Positions 2,580 to 9,300 of a stretch of DNA of 64,000 nt are shown in pieces. The stretch covers positions 248,001-312,000 of the forward strand of contig NZ_NKRG01000001.1 in the NCBI RefSeq assembly GCF_003351105.1. The letters run 5' to 3'. The DNA comes from Thermosipho africanus Ob7 (GTDB lineage: Bacteria > Thermotogota > Thermotogae > Thermotogales > Fervidobacteriaceae). A program made the translations under genes and the position numbers. The notes beneath the pieces were generated by a model. The model had not been told where the DNA came from, ran no database searches, and saw nothing but the letters and a program-made list of their open reading frames with translations. Position 1 is the stretch's first letter. Each line of letters opens with the position of its first letter.

Positions 2580-5063
2580 ATGAATGAAATTAATTGGAAA
2601 AAGAAGGTTGAAGCTTTTTTACACGATCCAGTGAATAAAATGGCAAATATTAGAGGACATAAAAACTTAGCTAAAACTTTATTAAATAAAGTCGGCTTGG
2701 AACAAAATAATAATCCGAGATATGATTATATTGCTTCTGCTGCAACTAGGATATTGTTTCCTCAAGAAGTAACAAAGATTAAAAGAAATTCTGAGCAAAT
2801 AAGGATTGAATTTGATGAATCAAAGTTTTTTCATCCGTTTTCTGGAAATGATTTGAGCGAATACCATAAAGTAAAGGAAAAAATTAAAAATATCGATGAA
2901 GAAAATTTTATATCTAAATTGGCCAAAATAGAAGATTATAAAAAACTTGCGTATAGGCTTTGGTGGGAAATTCCTAAAATTTCGGATTATTCGTATCTAA
3001 TATTGGAAGATACAAGGCTTACAAATCAAAGTATTATAGATCACTTAGATATTTCTTCAGCTTTTGCAACAGCAGATGAAGAAAGCAATGGATATTTAAT
3101 TTTGTCTGTAAGTATAGGTCCAGTACAAGAATTTATTGCAGCTGGAAGAAAGATTAGAGATTTACGGTCAGGAAGTTATCTTCTTTCTTATCTTACATTT
3201 AAGGGGATTCAAGTAATAGGTGAAAAGTTTGGATTTGATTGTATTATATTTCCAGATTTGAGAAATAATTATTTAGTAAAAAAATATCTTGAAAATATTG
3301 ATGACTTTTTTAAAAATAATTCGGAAAAATTTTTAATGCAGCCAGAAGTTGCTTCTTTACCAAACGTTTTTACAGCTATTATTCCATATAAAGAAGAATA
3401 CATAGATAAAAATAGTGAGGAAAATATAGAAATTTTAATTAAAAGTGCTATAAAAAAGGAAATAGATAATATTTCTAAGTTTATCTTTGATTTGATAAAA
3501 AACAAAAAGTTAAAAGAATACACATTTTCAAAAGAGATTGAAAATAATCCAGAATTATACTGGAATAGACAAGTGAATATTTTTCCTGACATTATAGTTG
3601 AAAGTGTTATGTTTTATATATTTGGTGATGAGAAGCTTAATAAAGAAAATTGGATATTTAAAGAATGGGAAAAATTTATCGGTTCAAATGAGTTAGAAGA
3701 TTACTATGAACAGTTGTCAAAATTAGAAAATACATATAGTTTATCTGAAGCAAATATGTACAATTATCATACAAAAATACTTCAAGCAAAAAGTTTTTTG
3801 AGAAAAAACACACGAAATTTTAAGGCCTTAATTGAAGATTTTGAAACTCCAGGAGATGATTTATCAGGAGGATTAAAATCTTTAGTTATTTATGAAAAGG
3901 GAGATAGAAAAGAAAATCTGTCGGCTTTAAGTGTAATAAAAAGGGAGTTTTATAGATATCTTAAAAATGTAGGTTTAGATGAAGCAGGTGAAGGAATAAG
4001 AAATACAAGACCAATAAGCTATGAAGATTCTGAAGATGAGGAAGAAAACAACAAAGAAAGTATAGTGAAAGAATATAAGTTAGGTGTTTTATTAATGGAT
4101 GGAGATCAAATGGGCAAATGGATAACTGGCGATAAAATAGAGGATAATTTAAAAAGTGTTCATCCAAAAGCAAAAGAATTTCTTGAAAAACAATCAAGTG
4201 ACTATTTAGATTTTTTAAAGAAACATAAGTTAATAAATCCAACTTATCAAAAATCTATAAGTAGGACTTTAAACAAATTTTCTTACTTTGTACCTCATAT
4301 TGTTAGAGAATTTGAAGGTGAACTAATTTATGCGGGTGGAGATGATGTGCTTGCGATATTTCCCGCTAATAGAGTTCTAGAAGCTGCAAATAAGATAAGA
4401 AAAGTTTATTCTGGAATAGGAAATGTAAGAGTGGAGGTTAATAAAAATGATGGAAAGAGAGATATATATGAATTTAGGAATGGTTTTTGTTATAAAGATG
4501 ATTTACCTTTATTTAATATGATGGGAGAAAAAGCTACAATGTCAGCAGGTATTGTTGTTTGTAATCCGAAGTTAAATTTGTCGCTTGTTCTTGACGAGGT
4601 AAGAAAAGCAGAAAAAGAAGCAAAAAATGAAGGAAGAAACAGATTTTCTCTAAGAACAATTAGAAGAAGTGGAAAAATAACTAATTTAGTGTTTGAGTGG
4701 GAGTATTTAAGTAAATCAAAAGAAGTTTTTGATATTTTAGATGAGGTAGAATTTGTATACTCATTATTTGAAAAAAACGAAACAAAAAAAGAAAAGTCAT
4801 ATAATTCATTCTTTCGAAGGTTAAAAGTTGAATATGAAAAGTTGGAAATTAGTAAAAAAGAATTTATAGAACAGGTAATTCCTTATGTGTTAAAACGAAT
4901 AAAAAAGATCAAAGGAATAGAAAAAGTTATAGAAGTACTAGAAAAATATGTTCAAATCTTGGAAGAAAATAGTAAAAATTTTGAAAACAACAACCTTGAA
5001 AAATTTATTGATCTATTATTAGAGTACGAATACATAAAAAGGAAGGTTGATAAATATGAGTAA
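2580..5063 (+). CDS. cmr2: Cmr2 (Cas10), large subunit with HD and GGDD motifs
   Basis: This is the 827-residue Cas10 protein of the type III-B complex. It begins VEAFLHDPVNK, with H15-D16 as the HD-nuclease signature, although other HD-domain residues cannot be checked here. The polymerase/cyclase palm contains MDGDQMG near residue 505 and the intact A-GGDD motif at 586-589 followed by VLAIFP, so cyclic oligoadenylate synthesis is likely retained. That fits the HEPN effector gene at the head of the operon. Length is normal for Cmr2. Its last 8 bases overlap cmr3, suggesting coupled translation. Confidence 0.95.
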   Translation: MNEINWKKKVEAFLHDPVNKMANIRGHKNLAKTLLNKVGLEQNNNPRYDYIASAATRILFPQEVTKIKRNSEQIRIEFDESKFFHPFSGNDLSEYHKVKEKIKNIDEENFISKLAKIEDYKKLAYRLWWEIPKISDYSYLILEDTRLTNQSIIDHLDISSAFATADEESNGYLILSVSIGPVQEFIAAGRKIRDLRSGSYLLSYLTFKGIQVIGEKFGFDCIIFPDLRNNYLVKKYLENIDDFFKNNSEKFLMQPEVASLPNVFTAIIPYKEEYIDKNSEENIEILIKSAIKKEIDNISKFIFDLIKNKKLKEYTFSKEIENNPELYWNRQVNIFPDIIVESVMFYIFGDEKLNKENWIFKEWEKFIGSNELEDYYEQLSKLENTYSLSEANMYNYHTKILQAKSFLRKNTRNFKALIEDFETPGDDLSGGLKSLVIYEKGDRKENLSALSVIKREFYRYLKNVGLDEAGEGIRNTRPISYEDSEDEEENNKESIVKEYKLGVLLMDGDQMGKWITGDKIEDNLKSVHPKAKEFLEKQSSDYLDFLKKHKLINPTYQKSISRTLNKFSYFVPHIVREFEGELIYAGGDDVLAIFPANRVLEAANKIRKVYSGIGNVRVEVNKNDGKRDIYEFRNGFCYKDDLPLFNMMGEKATMSAGIVVCNPKLNLSLVLDEVRKAEKEAKNEGRNRFSLRTIRRSGKITNLVFEWEYLSKSKEVFDILDEVEFVYSLFEKNETKKEKSYNSFFRRLKVEYEKLEISKKEFIEQVIPYVLKRIKKIKGIEKVIEVLEKYVQILEENSKNFENNNLEKFIDLLLEYEYIKRKVDKYE

Positions 5064-6108
5064 AGTAAAGGTTCTTAAATTTATACCTATAGATTGGGTT
5101 TCTTTCAGAAAGTCAAAAAATTTTTCAACTTTTGAAAATACAATTTTTCCAAATATTAAAACTTTTTACGGTGCAATATTTTCAGCTTACTTTAGAAAAA
5201 GGGGAACTAAAAATGCTATAAAAGAAATAGAAAAAATGATTGAAGAAAAATTAATAAATTTAATCGGGCCATTTATTGTTTCGGAAAGAAATGAAATATA
5301 TTTTAGAAAGCCGGCTAATTTAAAACTCAGAAAAATTTGTAAAAATGAAAATTCATGCGAATATGAGTATGAGTATTATAAAGGATTTCCATGTCAAGAC
5401 TCTTTTGCTGTTGATGACAAGAATTTGAGATATATAAAATATAGTAATATAGATAATCTTTCAGAAGAAGGAATAACTTTTATTTCGATAAGTGATCTTG
5501 AAACTTTTAAAAAGTCTTCAGACAAAAAATTATATTTAAACTTACACAAATACAACAAAAATTTACCTTTTAGTATAGAAAGAAAAGTTGGTATAGCACT
5601 AGATAATAAAAAAAGAATGGTAGATAAGGAGCATGGGGCATTTTATTTATTATCAACCTACCGTTTTAGAGATGGGGCAGGATTTGGGGTTTTTATTGAT
5701 GAAAAGACTGAGCAGTTTTTAAATGAAAATAAAATTAACACAGTAAATATTGGAAGTAAAGGTAAATTGGCAAGATTAGAAATTTTCGAAATTGAAACTG
5801 ATTTGTTTTCTAAAGAAAGCAGTAGTAAGATTAAAGGATTGATGCTTTTAACTCCTGCCGTTTTTAAAAATGGATTTCTTCCAACGAGCGAATATATCAG
5901 GCAAAAAATTGTTGCTGTTTGCAATTACAAGCCTGAGGTTTATTCTGGATGGGATTTAAAGAAAAACAAGCCAGGTAAAATGTTTAGAATTGTTCCACCA
6001 GGCTCAGTTTTTTTTACTGAAGAAAAGTATTTAGAAAATTTAGAATTAACTGAGGAATTTAATGAATATAATTATGGAAAGTTTATAGTATTAGAAAATT
6101 GTGAATAG
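5056..6108 (+). CDS. cmr3: Cmr3, crRNA 5'-handle-binding RAMP subunit
   Basis: This 350-residue RAMP protein pairs with Cmr2 and binds the crRNA 5' tag in type III-B complexes. The sequence shows the Cmr3 N-terminal pattern KFIPIDWVSFRKSKNF, then IKTFYGAIFSAYFRKRG, and later GAFYLLSTYRFRDGAGFGVFID with a glycine loop. I chose ATG 5056 because GGAAGG lies nine bases upstream, whereas the in-frame TTG at 5047 directly abuts that site. It overlaps the end of cmr2 by 8 bases. Confidence 0.9.
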   Translation: MSKVKVLKFIPIDWVSFRKSKNFSTFENTIFPNIKTFYGAIFSAYFRKRGTKNAIKEIEKMIEEKLINLIGPFIVSERNEIYFRKPANLKLRKICKNENSCEYEYEYYKGFPCQDSFAVDDKNLRYIKYSNIDNLSEEGITFISISDLETFKKSSDKKLYLNLHKYNKNLPFSIERKVGIALDNKKRMVDKEHGAFYLLSTYRFRDGAGFGVFIDEKTEQFLNENKINTVNIGSKGKLARLEIFEIETDLFSKESSSKIKGLMLLTPAVFKNGFLPTSEYIRQKIVAVCNYKPEVYSGWDLKKNKPGKMFRIVPPGSVFFTEEKYLENLELTEEFNEYNYGKFIVLENCE

Positions 6109-6121
6109 GGGAGGTAATATT

Positions 6122-7006
6122 ATGAATCATGAAGTAGGAAGAATAGGATTTTTTTATGCTGTTACACAGATACATGCTGGGAAAGGTTTTGATGTTGGAA
6201 TAGTTGATCAACCAATTCAAAGAGAGATTCATACAAGATTTCCTGTAATAAATGGTGTTAAGGGGGCAATTAGAAATGAGATAAGCAGGTTAATAAATAT
6301 AAATTATAATGACATTACACAAATTTTTGGAACGGAATTTCAAGACAACGAAGCATCCGAAGCTGGTAAGGTAAGTTTTTCAGAGGGGAAATTAGCTTTT
6401 TATCCCGTTAGAAGTATCGATAGAGGAATTGTATGGATAACTTGTCCGTTAATTTTATCTAGATTAAAAATAGCATTTGACGTTGTTGGACTAGAAGAAT
6501 TTAAAAAACTAATTGAGAAAATAAATATAAGTTATAAAGAGGATTATAAAGCATTGTCAACAATCAATGATTCTAAAATTTGCTTGGAAGAATTTGAGCA
6601 AGACATTGAGTATTCTGAAGATTTAATGAGTTTTGTAAATCATTTAAGAAATATTTTTCCTGATGAAAGACTTTTTGAGAGATTTTCTAGTAATTTAGTT
6701 ATTTTAAGTGATGAAGATTTTTCATATTTTGTTACTAATAGTACAGAAGTTATTGCAAGAATAAGAATTAACCCTCAAAAACGAACAGTTGATAAAGGAG
6801 CATTATGGTATGAGGAATATATTCCACAAGATTCTGTGTTGTTTTTTATTTCAAAATTACTAGTTAATGACGCAGATTATTTATTAAAAAAAATTGATGA
6901 ATTAAATTCAAAATTTTTAAATATAGGTGGTAATGCTTCAATAGGGAAGGGGATCGTTTATATTTCATTTTTACCTTTTAAGGGGGAAGATAAAAATGAG
7001 AAATAA
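6122..7006 (+). CDS. cmr4: Cmr4, backbone and target-RNA cleaving subunit
   Basis: This 294-residue protein is the repeated backbone subunit of the Cmr complex; in this family it cuts bound target RNA at 6-base intervals. It shows FYAVTQIHAGKGFDVG and VDQPIQREIHTRFPVI with D29 at the site of the family's catalytic aspartate, then INGVKGAIRNE. The C-terminus has the glycine-rich NIGGNASIGKGIVY. The start is the ATG after GGGGAGGT at 6109-6116. An upstream in-frame GTG overlaps the cmr3 stop and has no ribosome binding site. It overlaps cmr5 by 11 bases. Confidence 0.94.
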   Translation: MNHEVGRIGFFYAVTQIHAGKGFDVGIVDQPIQREIHTRFPVINGVKGAIRNEISRLININYNDITQIFGTEFQDNEASEAGKVSFSEGKLAFYPVRSIDRGIVWITCPLILSRLKIAFDVVGLEEFKKLIEKINISYKEDYKALSTINDSKICLEEFEQDIEYSEDLMSFVNHLRNIFPDERLFERFSSNLVILSDEDFSYFVTNSTEVIARIRINPQKRTVDKGALWYEEYIPQDSVLFFISKLLVNDADYLLKKIDELNSKFLNIGGNASIGKGIVYISFLPFKGEDKNEK

Positions 7007-7406
7007 AATTGAAATAAAGAACTTTTCTCAAAATAAAATAAAAGAAAATTTAAAGGAAATGGAAAGTAATAATGAATTAAAAAAAAGTTATAAAAGTTTA
7101 GTGAAAAGTTTAGGTGCGTTAGTTTTGCAGAATGGGTTATACGCTTCAATAGTTTTTATTATTTCTAAAACAAAAGATAAAAATAATTACTATTATGTAC
7201 TAAAAGATATTCAAAAATTTTTAAAAGAATATTTTAAGGATAGTTATGTAGTAAACAATAAAGATATTAAAGATATTAAACAAGAAGTATTAGAATTTTT
7301 AGAAAGTGAATCTTTCAAAAAAGCTTATAAACAATTTTCGGAACAATTTATAGAATTTATAAAATGGCATAGGAGATATGTTGATATCTACATTGATATT
7401 GATTAA
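6996..7406 (+). CDS. cmr5: Cmr5, small alpha-helical subunit
   Basis: This is a small, highly helical, lysine-rich protein of 136 residues. The segment SLVKSLGALVLQNGLYASIVFIISK (split here around residues 30-55) matches the Cmr5 core, in which a conserved glycine-leucine pair precedes a hydrophobic helix. In the complex Cmr5 lines the inner filament facing the target RNA. The position between cmr4 and cmr6 is the standard order. The ATG follows AAGGGGGAAG and overlaps the end of cmr4. Confidence 0.88.
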   Translation: MRNKIEIKNFSQNKIKENLKEMESNNELKKSYKSLVKSLGALVLQNGLYASIVFIISKTKDKNNYYYVLKDIQKFLKEYFKDSYVVNNKDIKDIKQEVLEFLESESFKKAYKQFSEQFIEFIKWHRRYVDIYIDID

Positions 7407-7423: not shown

Positions 7424-8170
7424 ATGAAGGTGGGTTATAAAGAAGATTTGGGTAATAAAAATATTAAATCATTTAGTTTGTTTTATGATAAGTATGTTTA
7501 TTATAATTTACATAAAAATTTATCTAAAAAGAAAAATGAGGATAAATTAAAAGATTTAAATAATATACTTAAAGTATTTTTCAATAATAATAGATATATT
7601 TATGAAAATTCAAAAATTTTAAATGATGTATTTTCGAAAGCTTTAAAGCAGCTTCAAACTTCAGGGTATCAAATATATGAAAAAAGTTTTGAGTTGAGTT
7701 CTCCCTTGTTAATTGGTTCAGGTATTCCTTCAGCTTACGAAGTTGGAATTTATTTAAATAGAAATTATGGCTTGCCTGTTATTCCAGGACAATCTATTAA
7801 AGGGTCATTTAAAGCATTTTTAGATGAAATTGATGAAAACGATCTTATTTTTTTTGGAAATAATGAGAATTCTTCTGAAATTTTCTTTTTCGATGCTGTC
7901 CCAGAAAAATACAAATTAGGAATTGATATTTTAAATCCACATTTTAAGGAGTACTATTTGAGCGAAAATGTGCCAAACGATGTTTATCAACCTGTTCCAA
8001 TTAATTTTATTAGTGTATTTGAAGGAACATATGTATTTAGATATGTTATAGTATCAGAAAAAAATGATGATAATAAAAATAAAAAAATATCAGAATATTT
8101 TGAAGAATTTCTAACTATATATGGAATAGGTGCAAAAACTTCTATGGGTTATGGTAGATTTAAAAAGTGA
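7424..8170 (+). CDS. cmr6: Cmr6, type III-B RAMP subunit
   Basis: This is a 248-residue RAMP protein. After a charged N-terminal region it shows FELSSPLLIGSGIPSAYEVG, then LPVIPGQSIKGSFKAFLDE, the typical Cmr6 core. It ends in the glycine loop GIGAKTSMGYGRF. Cmr6 sits next to Cmr1 at the 3' end of the crRNA. It is the last gene of the operon; the next gene on this strand is more than 1.4 kb away. Confidence 0.92.
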   Translation: MKVGYKEDLGNKNIKSFSLFYDKYVYYNLHKNLSKKKNEDKLKDLNNILKVFFNNNRYIYENSKILNDVFSKALKQLQTSGYQIYEKSFELSSPLLIGSGIPSAYEVGIYLNRNYGLPVIPGQSIKGSFKAFLDEIDENDLIFFGNNENSSEIFFFDAVPEKYKLGIDILNPHFKEYYLSENVPNDVYQPVPINFISVFEGTYVFRYVIVSEKNDDNKNKKISEYFEEFLTIYGIGAKTSMGYGRFKK

Positions 8171-8547: not shown

Positions 8548-8995
8548 CTATAATAACCTCAACGATAGAGTCTAAACGCTTATGTTGATGAAGATTATTA
8601 TGGTAAACATCATTATGCAATTTCATTCCTCATAGGTAGATTCTAAACAACAATTATCCCCGTTGCAAATTGGAGACAGTTTCGTACGTTTTCATTCCTC
8701 ATAGGTAGATTCTAAACACGATTTCTTTGGTTCAACAAAAAGCGACTATGTTTTAGAATCGTTTTCATTCCTCATAGGTAGATTCTAAACCATATAAAGG
8801 ACGTTTGCCACAAGGAGCAGTAACTAGTCCGTTTTCATTCCTCATAGGTAGATTCTAAACGTTTCCTAGTTGACTCATAGAGCCAGTGCCGGAAACATGT
8901 TTTCATTCCTCATAGGTAGATTCTAAACTAAGTGAAGGTGTAATTATGGATACATATGAATTTGTGTTTTCATTCCTCATAGGTAGATTCTAAAC
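8548..8995 (-). CRISPR. CRISPR array, 7 repeats (one degenerate) and 6 spacers, read on the minus strand
   Basis: Repeats of 30 bases lie at 8548-8577 (degenerate), 8619-8648 (first two bases changed), 8688-8717, 8761-8790, 8831-8860, 8899-8928 and 8966-8995. Spacers are 41, 39, 43, 40, 38 and 37 bases. On the minus strand the repeat begins GTTTAGAATC, contains CTATGAGG and ends GAATGAAAAC. This resembles the clostridial/thermophile repeats ending in ATTGAAAC, whose last eight bases become the crRNA handle. The degenerate copy keeps its minus-strand 5' half and has lost its 3' half, as expected for a leader-distal terminal repeat. The array therefore most likely runs leftward, away from a leader at about 8996-9300. 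Confidence 0.93.
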
Positions 8996-9300
8996 CTATA
9001 CTATATAAATAAATATAACAAGAAAAAGTAACAAAACCTTTGAGCGGAAGTAAACAGTAAGTTAAATGTAGTATTTATAAGCTTTCATTTAATTTTATCT
9101 TCGGAAACATCTCCTAAAAATTTGTCTAATTTTAATTTGTTAACATAAAAGTTACAAATATAAAAACAGGAAACTAGTAAAAAAGAGTTTTTTTCAAAAT
9201 TGGTTACAAAAGTGTTAACATGACGTTTTATCTTAAAATATTTTTGTGATTTTTAATTGTTAATAATAAATTGTTATTTTATTAATATAATTTTTCTAAT
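8996..9300 (-). promoter_or_regulatory. Probable CRISPR leader, AT-rich, with repeated GTTAACAT/GTTACAAA motifs
   Basis: The region directly right of the last intact repeat is very AT-rich and has no gene, as expected of a leader for a minus-strand array. It holds GTTAACAT at 9139-9146 and 9214-9221, and GTTACAAA at 9151-9158 and 9203-9210, in opposite relative order. I could not identify a convincing minus-strand promoter by eye. The rest of the gap to 9560 also shows no supported gene. Confidence 0.5.

Follow-up and report, generated by a model that had tools for sequence, protein, structure and literature searches.

Spacers of type III CRISPR systems are biased toward the coding strand, at 65% on average, and selection acting at the interference stage yields this same bias (PMC8482600). 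For Thermosipho, type III systems are reported in all genomes of one study, along with mostly unique spacers and prophages (PMC6211235); a term search of this study of Thermosipho CRISPR loci returned no mention of reverse transcriptase (RT). No report of a CRISPR spacer directed against a retron RT was found in a limited search of the open-access literature. The locus described here lies in a window of 64 kb (the whole stretch of DNA that was analyzed, to which coordinates refer unless a contig or locus is named). It resembles type III-B (Cmr) systems that also comprise Cas6, Csx1 and CalpL/T/S-like proteins in its gene content, in the GAAAAC 3′ end of its repeat, in spacers of 37-43 nt, in the Cas1-Cas2 genes nearby and in the coding-strand bias of its spacers, and no categorical difference from type III-B systems was observed.

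The type III-B locus and its array

The window opens within the 3′ part of csx1 (1-561), which codes for a HEPN RNase with R-x4-H and whose full gene (367 aa) starts upstream. It is followed, also on the + strand, by cas6 (572-1294), cmr1 (1318-2562), cas10/cmr2 (2580-5063), cmr3 (5047-6108), cmr4 (6101-7006), cmr5 (6996-7406) and cmr6 (7424-8170). All six genes from cmr1 to cmr6 scored above curated cut-offs, as for a type III-B gene set, and Cas10 presents both the HD motif (near residue 15) and the cyclase GGDD motif (from residue 586) of such systems. The locus extends upstream of the window, where it includes cas1b, cas2, another array and, before the csx1-cas6-cmr genes, genes matching CalpL (SAVED-Lon, 480 aa), CalpT (CRISPR-T, 254 aa) and, weakly, HTH models (G000:C1:244362-247123; L133:16363-19124). 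The product of the last one, a 182-aa HTH protein, may be CalpS. Genes of both the Csx1 and the Calp signalling branches are carried by this III-B locus. Elsewhere in the host genome (31% G+C, with an HrcA close to PDB 1STZ), a second cas1 is broken by 5 internal stops (G000:C8:12974-13567; L089).

The CRISPR array (8619-8995) consists of 30-nt repeats at 8619 (two changes), 8688, 8761, 8831, 8899 and 8966, separated by five spacers of 37-43 nt, and three further arrays with the same repeat are found in the host genome. To its left, a strongly degenerate leader-distal repeat (8548-8577, minus strand) occurs at the same place in the sister species, and the oldest, leader-distal spacer (8578-8618, minus strand) recurs with 100% identity over 40 bases in the sister genome G001, where it occupies the equivalent position next to cmr6. 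This match belongs to the sister's own array and was rejected as a protospacer. To the right, the leader (8996-9215, minus strand) comprises about 200 conserved nt, located on the same side of the genome's other arrays and of most sister arrays. With the leader on the right and the ancestral spacer at the left end, the array is read leftwards, so that its crRNA would be a minus-strand product, antisense to the RT mRNA considered below. The orientation of the array is firm, and we infer that it is transcribed from the leader. The proposal that a minus-strand crRNA would be antisense to an RT mRNA, made in an earlier sequence-only reading, agrees with the leader side, the shared old spacer, the sense frame on the + strand and the strand bias of the genus's 148 spacers described below. 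The newest, leader-proximal spacer (8929-8965) carries a ribosome-binding site followed by ATG (GAAGGTGTAATTATGGAT...) on the + strand, which points to another likely sense-strand protospacer. Besides, one spacer (TATATTATCTCTATCAAAAGAAG...) is present twice in another array of the host (L078, G000:C9).

The spacer and its relatives among reverse transcriptases

Perfect repeats (GTTTTCATTCCTCATAGGTAGATTCTAAAC) at 8761-8790 and 8831-8860 set the exact bounds of spacer S3 (40 nt) at 8791-8830. On the + strand, taken as the protospacer-sense strand, the sole open frame of this spacer is that starting at 8793, the codons of which (8793-8828) encode YKGRLPQGAVTS and are followed by CC(N), that is, proline. 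The RT-like peptide read earlier from this frame, with its forced proline, is thereby confirmed as YKGRLPQGAVTS(P), and neither of the other + frames is open. The leading CA is also compatible with an RT, since Thr can be encoded by ACA and C-T-[YF]-K-G is the reading in both of the closest relatives. Translated in this way, with strand and frame both as required, the spacer spells motif 4 (LPQGAxTSP after [YF]KG), the signature of a retron-type RT. According to a first-order model built from the genus's own spacers, LPQGxxTS is expected by chance about 4e-7 times per spacer and 6e-5 times across all 148 spacers of the genus, and the longer [YF]KGxLPQGAxTS about 8e-13 times per spacer and about 1e-10 times across the 148 spacers.

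Among 84,980 species genomes scanned, [YF]KGxLPQGA[VIM]TSP was encoded at only two places, both of them in retron-type RTs with Y[SA]DD downstream of the motif. One belongs to a Clostridiaceae MAG from coal (L074, YKGLLPQGAVTSP), with 31/40 bases as in the spacer and an exact run of 18 nt, and the other to a Lentisphaerae MAG (L075, FKGHLPQGAVTSP), with 30/40 bases. The Clostridiaceae RT (L074:1831-2801) is split across two overlapping frames, indicating a pseudogene or an assembly error. In the plasmid collection, the only two matches were Enterococcus pVEF3 and pF104_1, both in retron Ec67-type RTs and in the spacer's frame, with 29/40 bases and an E value of 6 that makes them suggestive only. 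Within the host's order, a retron-like RT reading FKGVLPQGAITSP was found in G034 (L030). All these independent matches to [YF]KGxLPQGA[VIMP]TSP (L074, L075, pVEF3, pF104_1 and L030) fall in RTs having retron RTs as their best NCBIfam/PADLOC models. The RT of G034 (365 aa; L115:10703-11800) adjoins type I-D genes (Cas4-Cas1 fusion, helicase, Csc2) and is possibly a CRISPR-associated retron-type RT. Phages do carry such RTs, as illustrated by an IMG/VR phage contig with terminase and nicotinamide phosphoribosyltransferase genes whose RT reads RGSLPQGAVTSP. A tblastn search against phages, whose query was extended beyond the spacer with residues borrowed from relatives, indicates no more than the presence of such RTs in some temperate phages and was not counted as evidence. 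In the host's family, two very long open frames with an RT domain (L034, G001:C3:103327, 1375 aa; L035, G010:C5:33324, 1419 aa), the former matching RT_UG6/DRT models in part, are candidate defence RTs.

The spacer shares with retron RTs (NCBIfam retron_St85_RT and retron_Ec67_fus; PADLOC retron types II-A and III-A) the motif [YF]KGxLPQGAxTSP, the frame and up to 31/40 bases, whereas the target is known here from 12-13 residues only. LPQGxxxSP had been presented as a signature common to retron, group II intron and related RTs. It is indeed a real RT motif, occurring far beyond chance, but group II introns fit more poorly than retron-type RTs: the group II RTs found in the host's phylum have xPQGGxxSP at motif 4, and their loci share only 19-24/40 bases with the spacer, which is background identity. 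A group II intron RT was therefore rejected as the target on its motif, the spacer having LPQGAVTSP. The flanking residues matter in this assignment. The bare 9-mer LPQGAVTSP is encoded at 5 places in IMG/VR, at 4 of which translation in that frame reveals no RT context, whereas both genome matches to the 9-mer with the flanking [YF]KG are RTs. In a very large database, LPQGAVTSP without its flank is accordingly not decisive as proof of an RT.

Protospacer search and strand bias

The search for an exact or near-exact protospacer of the spacer 8791-8830 was negative in the host's own genome, 100 relatives, IMG/VR, PLSDB, INPHARED and GTDB genomes. Nor was a better match found in a non-RT locus, the best phage matches being with endonuclease VII genes of Klebsiella phages (26 nt, E = 2), which were judged to be due to chance. 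Self-targeting was rejected, as the only match in the host genome is the array itself and as this genome is without an RT gene. Relatives of the G034 RT and codon-degenerate variants of two neighbouring spacers were sought in IMG/VR with no match, and no RT was present in nine viral contigs akin to the prophage of G001. The sequence-only reading had concluded that the system was immunised against an RT-bearing element. The RT motif and the antisense strand agree with this conclusion, while the element, in view of the negative protospacer searches, is a putative one.

Then, the strand of the spacers was considered over three species of the genus. According to a codon model, 113 of the 148 spacers are coding-sense on the repeat-plus strand, i.e., about 76% against an average of 65% in type III systems (PMC8482600), a value estimated by the model rather than counted on mapped protospacers. 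The model was calibrated on the 64-kb window, where 86% of true sense 40-mers were positive. By array, the coding-sense share was 15/26 in L078, lower than in L076 (23/27) and L077 (14/16). Ribosome-binding site plus ATG signals were present in 8 spacers on the repeat-plus strand versus 0 on the other strand. Counting open frames per strand gave no bias because 40-nt pieces are too short, whereas the codon model does show it. Three other host spacers (L077_0, L078_10 and L078_15) match a siphovirus-like prophage that two sister species carry in L110, L111 (G001:C1:284000-322000) and L112 (G003), at 85-94% identity and on the coding strand in each case. A single helicase-loader-like gene of this prophage accounts for two of these matches.

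Origin of the spacer and its significance

We propose that a retron-type RT gene was the source of the spacer 8791-8830, which would come from its sense strand in the region of RT motif 4 (LPQG), and that this gene would have been carried by a mobile element entering an ancestor of the host bacterium. Read leftwards from the leader, the array would yield a crRNA antisense to the RT mRNA, the predicted minus-strand crRNA beginning with ATGAAAAC. The Cmr complex would bind this mRNA, Cas10 (HD, GGDD) would synthesise cyclic oligoadenylate, and the effectors would be Csx1 and the upstream CalpL/CalpT/CalpS-like set. Given the motif and its relatives, a retron-type RT gene is very likely to have contained the protospacer. 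The whole chain, from such a protospacer on a mobile element to the Cmr/Cas10/effector response, is likely: the array, the frame, the motif, the leader side, the cas gene set and the lack of an RT in the host are observed, and the retron-type target, its place on a mobile element and a functional crRNA are predicted. The mechanism is otherwise that known for type III-B systems and in this respect ordinary: the initial observation was sound, and its reading, right in outline, is sharpened here to a retron-type RT.

Thirteen residues are too few to fix an RT subfamily, and the nearest relative in the host's order adjoins type I-D cas genes with no obvious retron cassette, which would leave room for a protospacer in a non-retron RT, either CRISPR-associated or otherwise unclassified, with the same motif. 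This origin seems unlikely, however, since retron RT models give the best scores for this relative and are the nearest ones for every matching RT, and since all group II RTs found in the phylum read xPQGGxxSP. It is far less probable that the RT reading is a chance translation of a spacer actually derived from an unrelated gene or from intergenic DNA. Although the protospacer searches were negative and bare LPQGAVTSP occurs outside RTs in very large collections, such a coincidence has to be set against the expectation of about 1e-10 for the flanked motif in 148 spacers, the nucleotide similarity to retron RT genes (29-31/40, well above the background of 19-24/40) and the agreement of the strand of the spacer with the array-wide bias. 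Finally, acquisition from RNA by an RT-Cas1 would account for the sense-strand bias, which resembles that of other type III systems. However, RT-Cas1 is not needed for this bias because interference-stage selection suffices (PMC8482600). Besides, the host genome gave no RVT_1 match, and Cas1, encoded next to Cas2, is an ordinary Cas1b of 327 aa with no RT domain fused or adjacent. As far as recognisable RT domains are concerned, this route is refuted for the present genome and is the least credible of the three.

Under the retron-type RT reading, a mobile element with such a gene probably invaded the cell at some time in the past, and the spacer would be a fossil record of this encounter in a lineage whose own genome holds no RT. 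It would add a case of CRISPR defence directed against a gene that is usually part of another defence, the retrons, in the antisense orientation needed for RNA targeting. A more speculative and rather doubtful extension is that RNA-targeting CRISPR serves as a weapon against a rival defence, the crRNA silencing a phage- or plasmid-borne retron at its most conserved coding motif; if true, one spacer could cover many retron variants. Since a spacer taken from a less conserved part of an RT would escape recognition, such spacers may be commoner than is apparent.
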